A stretch of DNA of 64,000 bases from an uncultured Alphaproteobacteria bacterium (GTDB taxonomy: Bacteria; Pseudomonadota; Alphaproteobacteria; HIMB59; GCA-002718135): NCBI GenBank assembly GCA_902525035.1, contig CABZFN010000001.1, forward strand, positions 1 to 64,000. Direction: 5' to 3'. Shown here one piece after another: positions 14,380 to 39,726 of this stretch. Under the pieces are notes generated by a model. That model did no database searches, was not told the origin of the DNA, and worked only from the letters and a program-made list of their open reading frames with translations. The position numbers and the translations under genes are program-made. The stretch's first letter is position 1, and each line of letters begins with the position of its first letter.

Positions 14380-16170
14380 TTATTGTTTATCTTTATTAAT
14401 CCACCAAGATTCAATTACTATCCCATAAAGTGGAATTTCATCTGGGTATTCAAAAAAATCCCAATAAGCAATTCTATCTTTGTTACTATGATAGAGTGGA
14501 ACGACATAGTGACCCCATAATAAAACCCTATCAAGCGCGTGAATTGCGGTAGTTAGCTCTTGTCTATTTGAGGCATTTATTAGTTTTTCAATTAATGCAT
14601 CAACTGCTGGATTATTAATACCAGGATAATTTCTGCTCCCATCTTTTTGACCAACTTCTGACCCCCAATAAAATTGTTGCTCATTTCCTGGACTTAAACT
14701 GACTCCCCAGTATCTTTTAATCATATCAAAATCATAACTTAAAAGACGTTCTTGATATTGAGAGGAATCAACTGTTCTAACATCCATAGTAATTCCAAGT
14801 TTTTTTAAATTACTTTGATAGGCTAAAGCTATTTTTTCATCTGAAGGACTGACAATTAAAAATTCAAATTTAAATTCTTGCCCATCTTTGAACAGCTTTC
14901 CATTTTCAACATTCCACCCCTCTTTTTCGAGTATCTCTTTTGCTTTCAATAAATTTTTACGATCATTTCCACTTCCATCCGTAAGAGGTGGGGTAAATGT
15001 TTCCGTAAATACTTCTGCTGGAATTTCATCTTTCCATACATTCAATAATTCTAGCTCATTTTTTGATGGTAAACCTGAAGAAGCTAATGGTGAGTTATCA
15101 AAATAACTATCTGTTCTGACATATGCATTTTGATATATTGTTTTATTAATCCATTCATGATCATAGGCATAACTTAAAGCAAGTCTTACATTTCTATTAT
15201 TAAATATGTCACGTCTTGTATTCATCACAAGACCATTCATTCCAACAGGTCTATCGTTATTCATTTCTGTAAGTATTACTTTGCCATTCTGGACAGCTTT
15301 GAAATCATATTCTGATAACCAGCGTTTAACATTGTACTCTCTTCTAAAGTCGTATTCACCAACCTTAAAAGCCTCGACTAAGACATTTGAGTCTTTGTAA
15401 TAATCATAAATAATTGTATCAAAATTATAGAGACCTTTATTCACTGGTAAATCTTTTGCCCAGTAATTTTTAACGCGTTTGTATTTTATTTGACGCCCTG
15501 GATCCAGACTATCAACCTGGTATGGCCCACTACCTAGCGGGATATCTAAAAATGTTTTTGTAACATCAAGATTTTCATAAAACTTTTTTGGAATGATAGG
15601 AAGAAAGCCTGCAATAATAAGGGGCAATTCTTTATCTTCATTATTTTCAAAAATCATTTTTATTCCGTCATTTCCAATCAATTCAGTTTTAACAACTTTG
15701 CCATAAGTTTTTTTTTGATTTGGAGTACCTTTTGTTTGAAACGTTTCTAAACTAAATAATACGTCATCACGTGTTATTGGCGAGCCATCATGAAAGGTTG
15801 CATTTGAATTTAAATAAAAAGTTATAGAAGATCTGTCTTCAGGTAGTTCAACCTTCTCAGCTATCAATCCGTAGAGAGAGAAAGCTTCATCCCAAACTCT
15901 TCTCATTAATGTATCATTGACGTAACCAAGGCCAGCAGCTTTAGAGCCTTTAAAAGCTACTCTATTAAGATTATCAAAAGATCCATATGATCCAAATTTC
16001 ACAATACCACCCTTAGGTGCGTTTGGGTTTACATAATCTAGATTTTCAAAATCACTGGCATACTTTGGTATTCCATGCATGGCAATACCGTGAACCTTTT
16101 CACTGTATGCATGATTATTAAAAGAAATTATTGAAGCTAAAAGGACAAAAATAATGAGAATTTTTTTCAT
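14380..16170 (-). CDS. Extracellular solute-binding protein, family 5 (YejA-like)
   Basis: A 596-residue periplasmic binding protein of the oligopeptide/nickel class with a signal peptide ending about HAYSEK. FGSYGSFDNLNRVAFKG and the later LSYAYDHEWINKTIYQN match YejA, the binding component of an ABC importer for peptides such as microcin C. The permease and ATPase genes are not adjacent, so it must work with components elsewhere. It is divergent from the cytochrome c pseudogene. Ligand could be peptides or another oligomer. Confidence 0.85.
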   Translation of the reverse strand: MKKILIIFVLLASIISFNNHAYSEKVHGIAMHGIPKYASDFENLDYVNPNAPKGGIVKFGSYGSFDNLNRVAFKGSKAAGLGYVNDTLMRRVWDEAFSLYGLIAEKVELPEDRSSITFYLNSNATFHDGSPITRDDVLFSLETFQTKGTPNQKKTYGKVVKTELIGNDGIKMIFENNEDKELPLIIAGFLPIIPKKFYENLDVTKTFLDIPLGSGPYQVDSLDPGRQIKYKRVKNYWAKDLPVNKGLYNFDTIIYDYYKDSNVLVEAFKVGEYDFRREYNVKRWLSEYDFKAVQNGKVILTEMNNDRPVGMNGLVMNTRRDIFNNRNVRLALSYAYDHEWINKTIYQNAYVRTDSYFDNSPLASSGLPSKNELELLNVWKDEIPAEVFTETFTPPLTDGSGNDRKNLLKAKEILEKEGWNVENGKLFKDGQEFKFEFLIVSPSDEKIALAYQSNLKKLGITMDVRTVDSSQYQERLLSYDFDMIKRYWGVSLSPGNEQQFYWGSEVGQKDGSRNYPGINNPAVDALIEKLINASNRQELTTAIHALDRVLLWGHYVVPLYHSNKDRIAYWDFFEYPDEIPLYGIVIESWWINKDKQ

Positions 16171-16237
16171 TAATTCATCCTATCAAATAAAAGATAGATT
16201 TGTAATGTATATAAATCTAAATAATTATATAAATAGA

Positions 16238-16645
16238 ATGCAATTTTTTAAATTAATTTCACTAATTACAATATTATGCATTGGACCAAGTATTCATGCG
16301 GCAGAAATTGATATTTTTAAAGGTATGAAATTATATGCTGAAAATTGTGCTGGCTGTCATATGGGTAATTTAGCAGGTCATGAAGAGTGGAATAAATCTT
16401 AAGATGAAGACGGTCATCGAAGAGCGCCTCCGCTTAATGGCACAGGTCATACCTGGCATCACTCTCCTAAATATTTATTTCAGGTCACTAAATATGGTTT
16501 TAAAAAAATAATTCCTGATTATGAAGGAAAAATGCTTGGTAATGGAACGTTATCAGATGATGATGTTTGGTCTATTATCGAATTTATTAAAAGTACATGG
16601 CCTGAAAAATTACTAAAAAAATATAATTTCCATTTTAAGAGTTAG
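16238..16645 (+). pseudogene. c-type cytochrome interrupted by an in-frame TAA
   Basis: From ATG 16238 the frame gives a signal peptide, then LYAENCAGCHMGNLAGHEEW with the haem motif CAGCH (37-41), and stops at TAA 16400-16402 after 54 codons. The same frame continues without a gap for 80 more codons to TAG 16643-16645: APPLNGTGHTWHH, GKMLGNGTLSDDDVW (likely axial Met) and EFIKSTWP are exactly the remainder of this small cytochrome c family. So a single nonsense codon separates the two halves. This may be a recent pseudogene, a sequencing error or a read-through site. It precedes msrPQ on the same strand. Confidence 0.85.
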
Positions 16646-16649
16646 AATT

Positions 16650-16668
16650 ATTGAAGCAAAACTTCAAT
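16650..16668 (+). terminator. Weak hairpin after cytochrome pseudogene
   Basis: ATTGAAG (16650-16656) pairs with CTTCAAT (16662-16668) across a five-base CAAAA loop, followed by TTTAATATTT. It resembles a weak intrinsic terminator between the cytochrome remnant and msrP. Confidence 0.35.
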
Positions 16669-16696
16669 TTTAATATTTAAGATATATATTACTAGT

Positions 16697-17614
16697 ATGA
16701 AAATTTTAGGATCTGAAATCACACCCTATAATACATATTTAAATAGACGAAAGTTTATAAAGGGATCTCTGGCTAGTGCCATGCTAGCTACTGTTACATC
16801 ATCAGCATTTGCAAATCATGAAAGCGATCCTTCAGTTTATAGTAAAAATTTAAATGAAAACGATAAACTTAATTCTTACGAAGAAATCACTACCTACAAT
16901 AACTTCTATGAATTTGGTACTCACAAAAAACATCCGCATTTAAACTCTGGAAATTTTAAGACTAGGCCATGGACAATAAAAATAGATGGTCTTGTGAAAA
17001 AACCTCAGACATTTGACTTAGAAAAAATATTATCAAATGTAACAATAGAAGATAGAGTGTATCGATTAAGATGTGTTGAAGCTTGGTCCATGGTAATTCC
17101 TTGGCAAGGCTTTCAACTATCTGAACTTATAAAAATGGCTGAACCTTTTAGCTCAGCAAAGTATGTTCAATTTGTAACTGTCTTCAGACCGGAAGAAATG
17201 CCAGGACAACAAAAGAGAACAATTATTTGGCCATATAGAGAAGGGCTTCGAATGGATGAAGCAATGAATCCTCTAACAATTCTAGCTACCGGGTTGTATG
17301 GTCATGAAATGCCTAATCAAAATGGTGCACCCATAAGATTAGTTGTGCCATGGAAGTATGGTTTTAAATCAATTAAATCAATTGTGGAAATTAGATTCTT
17401 AGATACTCAACCGGAAACATCTTGGGAAACTTTGGCTCCTTGGGAATATGGTTTTTATGCTAATGTCAATCCTAATGTTAATCATCCAAGGTGGAGTCAA
17501 GGAACAGAGAGACGAATTGGAGAGTTTAAAAGAAGAGAAACACTTATGTTTAATGGCTATGAAAAAGAAGTAGCGCATCTCTATAAAGATTTAGATTTGA
17601 CTAAATTTTATTAA
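16697..17614 (+). CDS. msrP: Protein-methionine-sulfoxide reductase, molybdopterin subunit
   Basis: Periplasmic molybdoenzyme of the sulfite-oxidase fold (YedY/MsrP) that reduces methionine sulfoxide in exported proteins. The 305-residue precursor has a Tat signal (NRRKFIKGSLASAM, 17-30). The molybdenum-ligating Cys is Cys126 in RLRCVEAWSM, and WPYREGLRMDEAMNPLT and GAPIRLVVPWKYGFKS are family signatures. msrQ follows after three bases, its membrane haem partner. Length and motifs are intact. Confidence 0.95.
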   Translation: MKILGSEITPYNTYLNRRKFIKGSLASAMLATVTSSAFANHESDPSVYSKNLNENDKLNSYEEITTYNNFYEFGTHKKHPHLNSGNFKTRPWTIKIDGLVKKPQTFDLEKILSNVTIEDRVYRLRCVEAWSMVIPWQGFQLSELIKMAEPFSSAKYVQFVTVFRPEEMPGQQKRTIIWPYREGLRMDEAMNPLTILATGLYGHEMPNQNGAPIRLVVPWKYGFKSIKSIVEIRFLDTQPETSWETLAPWEYGFYANVNPNVNHPRWSQGTERRIGEFKRRETLMFNGYEKEVAHLYKDLDLTKFY

Positions 17615-17617
17615 TGA

Positions 17618-18223
17618 ATGTTTTCTACAAGAAACTTTAATCGTAGTAAGCCCATCTTATTTATTTTAATTCTATTTCCTAGTCTGCTTTGGGCGTACCA
17701 ATTTGTTACTGGAAATCTTGGAGTAAATCCAATTGAAAAACTAATGGATGAGTTAGGTTTGATGGCACTCAGATTAATAATAATAACTCTTATGATTACT
17801 AGTCTATCAAATATTAAAACATTAAAATCGATAGTTGTATTACGAAGAATGATTGGACTTTTTGCTTTCTATTATGTCTGTTTACATTTCTCTACTTACA
17901 TCGTTTTAGATCATTTTTTAGATATGAAATTTATCATACAAGATATTATAAAAAGACCATTTATAACTTTTGGTTTTATTAGTTTTCTTTTTTTAATCCC
18001 GCTTGCTAGCACTTCAACGAACAATATGATTAAGCGATTAGGTTTTAAATTATGGAAAAAAATTCATTACTTAATCTATCCCGTAGCCATCCTGGCTAGT
18101 ATGCATTTTTATGTTTTAGTTCGTGCAGATAAAACTGAACCAGTTATTTATATGGGAATAATTATTCTTTTGTTACTTCACAGAATATTTAAGAGACTTA
18201 CTCGTCCTCAGTTGGCTCAGTAA
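17618..18223 (+). CDS. msrQ: MsrPQ system haem-binding membrane subunit
   Basis: Integral membrane b-type cytochrome of the ferric-reductase-like family that passes quinone-derived electrons to MsrP. The 201-residue protein has about six membrane spans, with haem-ligand candidates in YYVCLHFSTYIVLDH and KIHYLIYPVAILASMHFY. An alternative ATG at 17614 is out of frame; the chosen one lies three bases after the msrP stop. The final 26 bases overlap the convergent MFS gene. Confidence 0.93.
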   Translation: MFSTRNFNRSKPILFILILFPSLLWAYQFVTGNLGVNPIEKLMDELGLMALRLIIITLMITSLSNIKTLKSIVVLRRMIGLFAFYYVCLHFSTYIVLDHFLDMKFIIQDIIKRPFITFGFISFLFLIPLASTSTNNMIKRLGFKLWKKIHYLIYPVAILASMHFYVLVRADKTEPVIYMGIIILLLLHRIFKRLTRPQLAQ

Positions 18224-19436
18224 CTGGGTTCATTTCCATACCTGCGGGACTAATATTTCGAGGTAAAGGATTGTATAAAGATTCTAAATCTCGAGGTTTC
18301 GTTCTTTGTGTCATCCTATACAAACCAAAAAGACCTAGCAGCCCGTGTATCAAAAATAAATAAATATAAAATCCAGCTGCTCCTATAATTTCCATAAAAC
18401 CTGAAACAAGTAATGGACCTATAATTGATCCAATTCCTATAAGTATTCCAAAAGTAGCACTCGCTGACACTATCTCATTAGGCTGAAGAAAATCATTTGT
18501 ATGCGCTACTGCTAAAGAATACATTGGTAAACAAGCTATGGAGAAAAAGAAGGTAATAATGAAGAATAAAGTGAGTGGCATAAAGTTTGCAAAAACAAAG
18601 AATAAACTTAAACCAGATGCCATAAAGGAAACACCAATTAAGATAATACGCCTATCTAATCTATCTGATAAATAACCAATTGGCCATTGAGACAACGCTC
18701 CAGCAGAAGTTATGATTGTCATGTATAAGGATATTTCAAACAAACTAAGATTAATAGAAGAAGCGTAGATAGCACCATAACCAAACACTGCACTATGAGA
18801 TAAACCAGTTGCTAACGCACCAACAAAACCTAAAGGAGAAACATTATAAAATTCTCTTAAAGAAAAATATTTTGGTCTCTCTGTATTTGGTTGGTCTGTT
18901 TTAGATAATAAAATAGGTAGCAATGCAAATGATAATAAAATTGAAACCAAAATAAATAAATCAACTTTAGCTGGATCACTTAAGTTTAATAAAAACTGAC
19001 CAGCTCCAACAAATACAAATGTAAAAATCATATAAATAGAAAGTAATTGTCCACGAGTTTCGTTAGTTGATTTTTCATTTAACCAACTTTCCATTATTAC
19101 GTATATACCGGCAAGACTCATACCCGTTAAAATGCGAATGAACATCCATGAATAGGGATGAACAAATACCGAGTGTAATAATATAGCAATGGAAGCAAGA
19201 GATGCTAAAGCAGCAAAGACTCTTATATGTCCAACTCTTCTTAATAATGTTGGAATAGTTACAGCACCTGTTAAATAACCAACATAATATCCTGCTATGA
19301 TTAGTCCAGAAGATACAAAACTAAAACCCTCAAGAACTGAACGAACACCGATAAGTGTTCCTTGCAAACCGTGACCAAGACTAATTAACGCAAAGCCAAA
19401 AAAAAGAGCCCAAGTATTTTGAAGTACCTTAAACAT
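18198..19436 (-). CDS. MFS transporter (YcaD-like)
   Basis: Major facilitator protein of 412 residues with twelve predicted membrane spans. SHGLQGT-like GHGLQGTLIGVRSVLEGF in the first helix, the GYYVGYLTG loop and GYLSDRLDRR between helices place it with the YcaD group of putative permeases. The hydrophilic C-terminal tail runs over the end of msrQ. No substrate is known for the group. Confidence 0.85.
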   Translation of the reverse strand: MFKVLQNTWALFFGFALISLGHGLQGTLIGVRSVLEGFSFVSSGLIIAGYYVGYLTGAVTIPTLLRRVGHIRVFAALASLASIAILLHSVFVHPYSWMFIRILTGMSLAGIYVIMESWLNEKSTNETRGQLLSIYMIFTFVFVGAGQFLLNLSDPAKVDLFILVSILLSFALLPILLSKTDQPNTERPKYFSLREFYNVSPLGFVGALATGLSHSAVFGYGAIYASSINLSLFEISLYMTIITSAGALSQWPIGYLSDRLDRRIILIGVSFMASGLSLFFVFANFMPLTLFFIITFFFSIACLPMYSLAVAHTNDFLQPNEIVSASATFGILIGIGSIIGPLLVSGFMEIIGAAGFYIYLFLIHGLLGLFGLYRMTQRTKPRDLESLYNPLPRNISPAGMEMNPVTEPTEDE

Positions 19437-37332: not shown

Positions 37333-38340
37333 TTAATTTTTAGAATCAATTTGTGAATCTAAAAATTCATTAGCGCAATCTTCCCACGTAAATTTCATAG
37401 CAAATTCACGACAATCATTTCTATTCACTTTAAGAGCTTTTTCTACTGAATTACCTAGTCTGTCATCAAGTGTATTTATTTTAGAATCTTTTAGAATATC
37501 TTTTGGTCCAGTAACATGAAATGCAGCAATTGGTGTTCCGCAAGCAAGAGCCTCAAGTATTACATTCCCTAAAGTATCCGTTTTAGATGGGAAAACAAAT
37601 ACATCTGCATTCGCATAATATTCTGCAAGTTCATTACCTCGTTTCAATCCAACAAAATTTACGTCAGGATATTTTTTTATATATTTTTGTAATTCAGGAC
37701 CATCACCTACAACTGTTTTATTATAATTTCCTTTTAGTTTTAAAAATTCTTCAATATTTTTTTCAATAGCAACTCTTCCAACATATGTCAGTTGAATGTC
37801 ATTATCATTTCTATTTCTTTTATTTGGGTTGAATAATTCAGTATCAACTCCTCTATTCCATACTTTTAAATTTTTGAAATTATACCGCTCTAATTCTTCG
37901 ACCATGGAAAGCGATGGAACAAGTACATTTACAGAATTATAATGAAGTCTTCTTAATATTGAATATGTAAAACTTTTGGGAATATAAGCTCTCTGTTTAA
38001 TATAATCAGGAAAACGGGTGTGAAAAGAAGAAGTGTATCGTAGTTTACTTTTAAGACAGTATTTACGACCAGCAAAACCTACTGGACCTTCAGTCATTAT
38101 ATGAACAATATCTGGATTAAATTCTTTAAAAAATTTTTCTGTAATTTTTTTAGTATTGAAAGAAATTTTAATTTCTTTGTACCAAGGATAACTAAAATTA
38201 TTAAACATCTCAGGATGTAATATTTTAATTTCAAAACCTTTTTTTTCTAGAATAGGTATAACTCTTTGAAATGTCGTAACTACGCCATTTACCTGAGGAA
38301 CCCACGCATCACTAATTAACGCGATTTTTTTAGGCTGCAT
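37333..38340 (-). CDS. agt: Glycosyltransferase family 4, Agt-like diacylglycerol glycosyltransferase
   Basis: A 335-residue GT-B glycosyltransferase. DAWVPQVNGVVTTFQRVIP at the N-terminus and the C-terminal PSKTDTLGNVILEALACGTP, with the E-x7-E nucleotide-sugar motif, match the group that includes SQD2-like and phosphate-stress diacylglycerol glycosyltransferases (Agt). It overlaps the upstream plcP gene by 11 bases. In marine bacteria this pair replaces phospholipids by glycosyl-diacylglycerols when phosphate is scarce: PlcP makes diacylglycerol and Agt adds sugar. The neighbouring phosphate genes support the same role. Confidence 0.85.
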   Translation of the reverse strand: MQPKKIALISDAWVPQVNGVVTTFQRVIPILEKKGFEIKILHPEMFNNFSYPWYKEIKISFNTKKITEKFFKEFNPDIVHIMTEGPVGFAGRKYCLKSKLRYTSSFHTRFPDYIKQRAYIPKSFTYSILRRLHYNSVNVLVPSLSMVEELERYNFKNLKVWNRGVDTELFNPNKRNRNDNDIQLTYVGRVAIEKNIEEFLKLKGNYNKTVVGDGPELQKYIKKYPDVNFVGLKRGNELAEYYANADVFVFPSKTDTLGNVILEALACGTPIAAFHVTGPKDILKDSKINTLDDRLGNSVEKALKVNRNDCREFAMKFTWEDCANEFLDSQIDSKN

Positions 38341-39142
38341 CCTCTTTTATTTTTCGTCTTTCTTCAAAAGAAATTAATTTTAATTTTTCTCTTTCTTCGG
38401 GCCAATTAAGAATAGATAAATTTCCAATTTCATCTTCAACGAGTGCTGTGCAACTTTCAATCCAGTCACCATCATTACAATAGAGAACACCATTTAATTC
38501 CTTTATTTCAGGTCTATGTATATGCCCGCACACAACGACATCTGCATTTTCTCTTCTTGCCCTATCAGATACAGCAAACTCAAAATTACTAATAAAGTTT
38601 GTTGCATGCTTTGTTTTCTTTTTTAAATATTGAGACAGTGACCAGTAAGATAAGCCCATCTTTCTTCGAATAAAATTAAATACATTATTTAACTTTAGTA
38701 AATATTCATAAAGTGCTGATCCCACTTTGGCTAACCATCTTGCATTAATGATCACAGCATCAAACTCATCTCCGTGTGTAATCAGTACTTTCCTTCCATC
38801 AGCTAATTGATGCGTATCTTCATTTTTGATTGAAATTTCTCCAAAGGAAAAATTTGTAAAATCTTTTAATACTTCATCATGATTTCCTGGGATAAGCACT
38901 ACCTTAGTTCCATTTTTCGCTTTTTTTAAAACTTTTTGAACCACATCATTATGTTCTTGAGGCCAATACATTTTCTTACGCATGCGCCATCCATCTACAA
39001 TGTCGCCTACTAAAAATAGATATTCTGAATCTGTTTCCTCTAAGAATTCTAAAAGCATTTTGCTTTTACAGCCACTAGTTCCTAGATGGGTATCCGAAAT
39101 CCAAATTGTGCGGTAAAATTTTTTATTTGTTTCAAATTTCAT
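38330..39142 (-). CDS. plcP: PlcP-type phospholipase C (metallophosphoesterase)
   Basis: A 270-residue calcineurin-like metallophosphoesterase. Metal ligands are in ISDTHLG (Asp17, His19), VGDIVDGWRMR, PGNHDE, THGDEFDAV and CGHIHRPE. The block GDIVDGWRMRKKMYWPQEHN and the lack of LpxH-type features fit PlcP, the enzyme that removes head groups from phosphatidyl lipids during phosphate starvation. Automatic annotation often calls it UDP-2,3-diacylglucosamine diphosphatase. Eleven-base overlap with the Agt-like gene and position inside a phosphorus island strongly favour PlcP. Confidence 0.87.
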   Translation of the reverse strand: MKFETNKKFYRTIWISDTHLGTSGCKSKMLLEFLEETDSEYLFLVGDIVDGWRMRKKMYWPQEHNDVVQKVLKKAKNGTKVVLIPGNHDEVLKDFTNFSFGEISIKNEDTHQLADGRKVLITHGDEFDAVIINARWLAKVGSALYEYLLKLNNVFNFIRRKMGLSYWSLSQYLKKKTKHATNFISNFEFAVSDRARRENADVVVCGHIHRPEIKELNGVLYCNDGDWIESCTALVEDEIGNLSILNWPEEREKLKLISFEERRKIKEDAA

Positions 39143-39228
39143 TAATTAAAGAATTGTTCTTATACATAAAAGTATCATTTTATAATACAATTTATTATTA
39201 TATGTGTGTATTGTAAAAAAATAACAGT

Positions 39229-39726
39229 ATGACGGAGAAAATTTGGTTTAAAAAAAAATCACCCCTTCACGGCTCTGGATTATTTGCAAAAACTAATATT
39301 AAAAAAGGTCAGAAAGTAATCCAATATATTGGTGATAAAGTTACTAAAAGAGAGGGTGACAAAAGAGCAGATAAACAAATCCGTAAAGCAAAAAAAGATA
39401 AAAATAACGGCATGGTCTATGTTTTTGAACTAAACAAGCGATACGACATAGACGGTGATGTCGATTATAATTTTGCAAAATTTATTAACCACTCATGTAA
39501 TCCTAATTGTGAAGTAGACATCATAGATAATGAAATTTGGATTTCTTCCATTAAACGAATAAAAAAAGGTGCCGAACTTTTTTATAATTATGGTTATCCT
39601 TTTGATACAGATTTTGTGGATCACATTTGTAAGTGTGGTTCTAGAAATTGTGTTGGCTATATTTTAAGTGATAATGATTGGCCTAAATTAAAAAAAGAAC
39701 TCAAAAAGAATAGAGGTAAGCTTTAA
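39229..39726 (+). CDS. SET domain protein (lysine methyltransferase-like)
   Basis: A 165-residue stand-alone SET domain. SPLHGSGLFAKTNIKKG at the N-terminus, NHSCNPNC at 87-94 and GAELFYNYGYPF near 114-125 are the SAM- and lysine-binding motifs; a post-SET-like CKCGSRNC (Cys134, Cys136, Cys141) follows, matching zinc-binding post-SET motifs of eukaryotic histone methyltransferases. Such compact bacterial SET proteins probably methylate lysines of a protein. It overlaps the convergent PiT-like gene by four bases. Origin by ancient transfer is often suggested; the target is unknown. Confidence 0.88.
   Translation: MTEKIWFKKKSPLHGSGLFAKTNIKKGQKVIQYIGDKVTKREGDKRADKQIRKAKKDKNNGMVYVFELNKRYDIDGDVDYNFAKFINHSCNPNCEVDIIDNEIWISSIKRIKKGAELFYNYGYPFDTDFVDHICKCGSRNCVGYILSDNDWPKLKKELKKNRGKL

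Follow-up and report, generated by a model that had tools for sequence, protein, structure and literature searches.

A gene for a small monohaem c-type cytochrome, situated just upstream of msrPQ in an uncultured alphaproteobacterium, is interrupted by a single in-frame TAA and is very probably a young pseudogene. The periplasmic cytochrome would be dispensable, is probably linked to copper and seems to have been lost repeatedly in the genus. The window referred to below is the whole stretch of 64,000 nucleotides that was analysed; it belongs to an assembly of 1.38 Mb in 46 contigs that is 78% complete. The features at the locus are as follows.

14380 to 16170, minus strand: gene of a family 5 extracellular solute-binding protein, divergent and open; left border of the presence/absence site
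16238 to 16399, plus strand: 5' part of the cytochrome gene, 54 codons with a signal peptide-like N-terminus (judged by eye) and CAGCH, from translation and Pfam
16400 to 16402, plus strand: in-frame TAA, codon 55, which is TTA in the main-clade loci
16403 to 16645, plus strand: 3' part of the cytochrome gene with GHTWHH, the conserved Met99, the C-terminal region and the normal stop, from translation and invariant columns
16697 to 17614, plus strand: msrP, protein-methionine-sulfoxide reductase catalytic subunit, intact; right border of the presence/absence site
17618 to 18223, plus strand: msrQ, haem-binding subunit, intact

Translation of positions 16238 to 16645 of the plus strand gives a 135-residue cytochrome frame comprised of 54 residues, the internal stop, 80 residues and a terminal TAG, and the string read across the stop is MQFF...CAGCH...NKS-stop-DEDGHRRAPPLNGTGHTWHH...GKM...FKS. 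The CXXCH haem-binding motif of class I cytochrome c is present as CAGCH (residues 37-41) ahead of the stop, and GHTWHH and Met99, which we infer to be the axial ligand, follow it. The distal Met and the C-terminal part are in one chain with the haem motif in the intact relatives but not in the window copy. With X placed at the stop, the Pfam families Cytochrome_CBB3 (PF13442, E 7.8e-11) and Cytochrom_C (PF00034, E 6.2e-10) both match across it above their cut-offs. Chance openness of the frame is excluded, because relatives encode the whole protein free of stops at 81-96% identity. An earlier note on this DNA had claimed a single frame at these coordinates with only the one TAA inside it, the two halves of a small cytochrome c on either side and a place just upstream of msrPQ; the translation, the Pfam matches spanning the stop and the intact msrP and msrQ downstream on the same strand bear out this description.

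Comparison of the same codon in close relatives, which the earlier note had proposed, reveals TTA (Leu) in all 74 loci of the genus main clade (80% protein identity and above) that cover codon 55; some genomes are represented by two ids, and the full-length sequences come to 42 distinct ones. In more distant homologues the position is occupied by another sense codon or a gap. The stop is therefore derived relative to the intact orthologues, as is expected of a nonsense pseudogene. A search of 102 genomes of the genus identified a cytochrome match in 54, three of which carry an internal stop. They are the window's genome (TAA), AG-337-I02 (G104 by its coordinates, a Pelagibacteraceae bacterium), in which the same gene carries TAG as codon 50 and TAA as codon 80 and retains TTA at codon 55, and a third genome (G106) with TGA. 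The copy in this third genome (L155, about 1564-1785) is a partial one of a divergent group at a contig end, and its TGA is about 10 residues short of the normal end. Seven genomes have copies that are 94% or more identical to that of the window, and two of them have stops, as against none of the 42 remaining full-length copies (Fisher p about 0.018); the other five matches are partial or divergent. The cytochrome protein of AG-914-F14 (L032) is 96% identical, yet the surrounding 10 kb shares 82% DNA identity.

Besides intact and point-broken copies, the genus has genomes from which the gene is cleanly absent. In all ten fetched loci of genomes with msrP and without a cytochrome match, the solute-binding protein gene adjoins msrP with only a short gap and no cytochrome between them. 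In an msrP tree of 58 rows, which has mixed support and many open branches, some of the cytochrome-less genomes (for example L136) are placed among cytochrome-bearing ones, a placement suggestive of more than one exchange of presence and absence. Local allele sharing with the relatives shifts along 10 kb and the overall identity varies between relatives, as is expected if the lineages recombine. Over the 10 kb the nearest relative of the window is L034, which has an intact cytochrome copy, whereas in the bins from 15200 to 16800 the window leans to AG-337-I02 or is even. One common broken ancestor of the window and AG-337-I02 copies was also considered; some local alleles are common to the two, but neither has the stop of the other. 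Since the closest relative over 10 kb is intact and the stops are unshared, such an ancestor is unsupported and exchange between lineages is likely.

Two further observations concern the rest of the window. Positions 18000 to 19200, in or near a transporter gene, are far nearer to L034 than to AG-337-I02 (up to 71 of 400 sites in one bin), and this L034-like stretch is a sign of lineage exchange. Two relatives, G020 (L123-L124) and G027 (L130-L131), have about 7.7 kb extra before the position equivalent to 39.0-39.7 kb of the window, together with a second match, 70% identical, to the window gene at 38330-39142 (region 38330-39720).

The intact form of the protein resembles the class I monohaem cytochromes c of PF00034 and PF13442, with the difference that the window copy is broken and that this cytochrome carries a (G/A)HTWHH motif. 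In seven aligned intact homologues, three of which are from other proteobacterial genomes, PPLNG, HTWHHS, CXXCH and the Met at position 99 are invariant. The gammaproteobacterial homologues L084 and L085 share 32-33% identity and the PPLNG-HTWHHS core with the window gene. The homologue in L084 adjoins a multicopper oxidase and a heavy-metal P-type ATPase, as assigned by Pfam, whereas the window gene adjoins msrPQ; L085 has ORFs resembling the neighbours seen in L084. A homologue from a genome of the same order (L158) adjoins a metal-sensitive repressor (PF02583) and a cupredoxin, and that of another genus member (L157) is near a Fur-family regulator and an ABC-3 transporter. These neighbours suggest a role of the intact gene in the handling of metal, probably copper. 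The window's genome has one other match to Cytochrom_C, which is intact and seemingly membrane-anchored, and because of this second cytochrome c an accessory role of the broken gene is probable. For the intact relative no NCBIfam model reaches its cut-off, no PDB sequence matches it at E 0.001, and our literature search found no paper on this cytochrome gene.

The rest of the window gene is well conserved and free of frameshifts. Against intact copies the window gene has a dN/dS of 0.106 and that of AG-337-I02 one of 0.15; intact copies among themselves give 0.072. Such conservation and low dN/dS would be given by a very recent break, and equally by a protein still in use; for a young break the remaining conservation is expected. 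The private changes of the two broken copies comprise missense and silent ones at 7:6, and those of five intact copies at 5:13 (Fisher p 0.26, with few changes); the same comparison with the three stops added gives p 0.08. Relaxed selection on the broken copies is thus suggested and is not significant. Nonsense changes make up three of the ten non-silent private changes, for which the chance is 0.017-0.06 depending on the assumed mutation bias, in a gene that was chosen for its stop.

The TAA could be a base error of single-cell amplification or assembly in a gene that is intact in the cell, a reading that we regard as unlikely. The closest named relatives, uncultured Alphaproteobacteria and AG-337-I02, have AG- isolate names, which we take to denote single-cell genomes; their assemblies are single-cell or MAG ones and the window's is probably one too. 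The lineage is presumably HIMB59 / AEGEAN-169. The codon is one base away from TTA. A published benchmark of marine single-cell genomes gives a rate of 5 mismatches per 100 kb (PMC11247762), which corresponds to about 0.17 expected error stops in the compared codons of the window, so that one somewhere in 64 kb is not rare. The same rate predicts about 0.001 error stops in this particular cytochrome gene, and an error there would need to have struck a gene that is double-stopped in a close relative and absent from others. As a control, the 63 genes of the window were searched in stretches of five relatives. AG-337-I02 matched 56 of them over 17,928 codons and has stops in the cytochrome alone, and no stops were seen in the matched genes of G103 (45/63), G020 (38/63), G038 (62/63) and G027 (47/63). 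When the ORFs of the relatives were compared with the window in reverse, a stop affected just one bona fide gene, the cytochrome, and the other compared bona fide genes of the window had neither stop nor frameshift; the remaining stop-bearing matches were, by their coordinates, short ORFs over longer genes of the opposite strand or 5' extensions upstream of a later start. Since two error stops in this gene of one genome have a probability of about 7e-7 at the benchmark rate, those of AG-337-I02 can hardly be errors, and by extension the stop in the window is probably real too.

Read-through or recoding of the stop, with a low level of full-length cytochrome, is very unlikely. It would account for the conservation on both sides of the stop and for the low dN/dS, and Belinky et al. 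2021 argue that in bacteria many genes with in-frame stops and low dN/dS are no pseudogenes, and that low dN/dS can indicate read-through (PMC7918605), an argument that counts in its favour. Conservation around the stop is expected anyway for so young a break, and the TAA at codon 55 occurs in no relative: the stops of the two close broken copies are at three different positions, of two kinds (TAA and TAG), in two genomes, and none is common. None of the 21 tRNAs found in the 78% complete genome has an anticodon that reads a stop, and the RNA 3' of the stop folds no better than its shuffles (z -0.01). Recoding is rejected on account of the presence of two class-I release factor genes and the freedom of the other bona fide window genes from internal stops. 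The chance appears very small that the stops represent a recurrent and tolerated down-tuning, by which a metal-linked cytochrome would be set to a trace level by leaky read-through, reversibly and not as a permanent loss. That the truncated product of 49-54 residues is itself useful as an exported haem-bearing peptide is extremely improbable; in the two broken copies the first stops stand 5 codons from each other and both come soon after CAGCH, but these are two cases only. In the seven aligned intact homologues, from three groups, GHTWHH, Met99 and several residues of the C-terminal part do not vary, and therefore selection keeps the full fold. Among the options that the earlier note had left side by side, recent inactivation is thus favoured by the sense codon in relatives, the independent stops in one relative and the clean absences; a base error could explain the single site but not the pattern across genomes, and read-through and recoding find no support in stops that differ in codon and kind, with no suppressor tRNA and no RNA structure.

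The young pseudogene would have arisen by a point change of TTA to TAA at codon 55, which would cut the small monohaem cytochrome c of the periplasm behind its haem motif and remove the conserved Met99 and the C-terminal half, so that presumably no full-length protein is made. The gene would be an accessory one, dispensable in this marine genus and probably copper-linked, which some members keep, some cleanly lack and at least one further close relative has broken through stops of its own; the loss may be neutral or mildly favoured. Like the recent nonsense pseudogenes of bacterial populations, it has a single derived stop in a gene that is otherwise conserved, has a sense codon in relatives and is absent from some genomes; unlike them, it occurs in a streamlined marine group and has a second close relative with independent stops. 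Few pseudogenes are described for SAR11 (PMC10308909), to which this group has been assigned.

The locus gives the impression of ordinary gene loss in progress and not of an unusual reading of the code. It provides a clear small example of gene loss under way in a streamlined marine group, in which relatives have the gene intact, point-broken or cleanly absent at one locus, and relatives allow an in-frame stop in such an assembly to be assessed before error or recoding is called.
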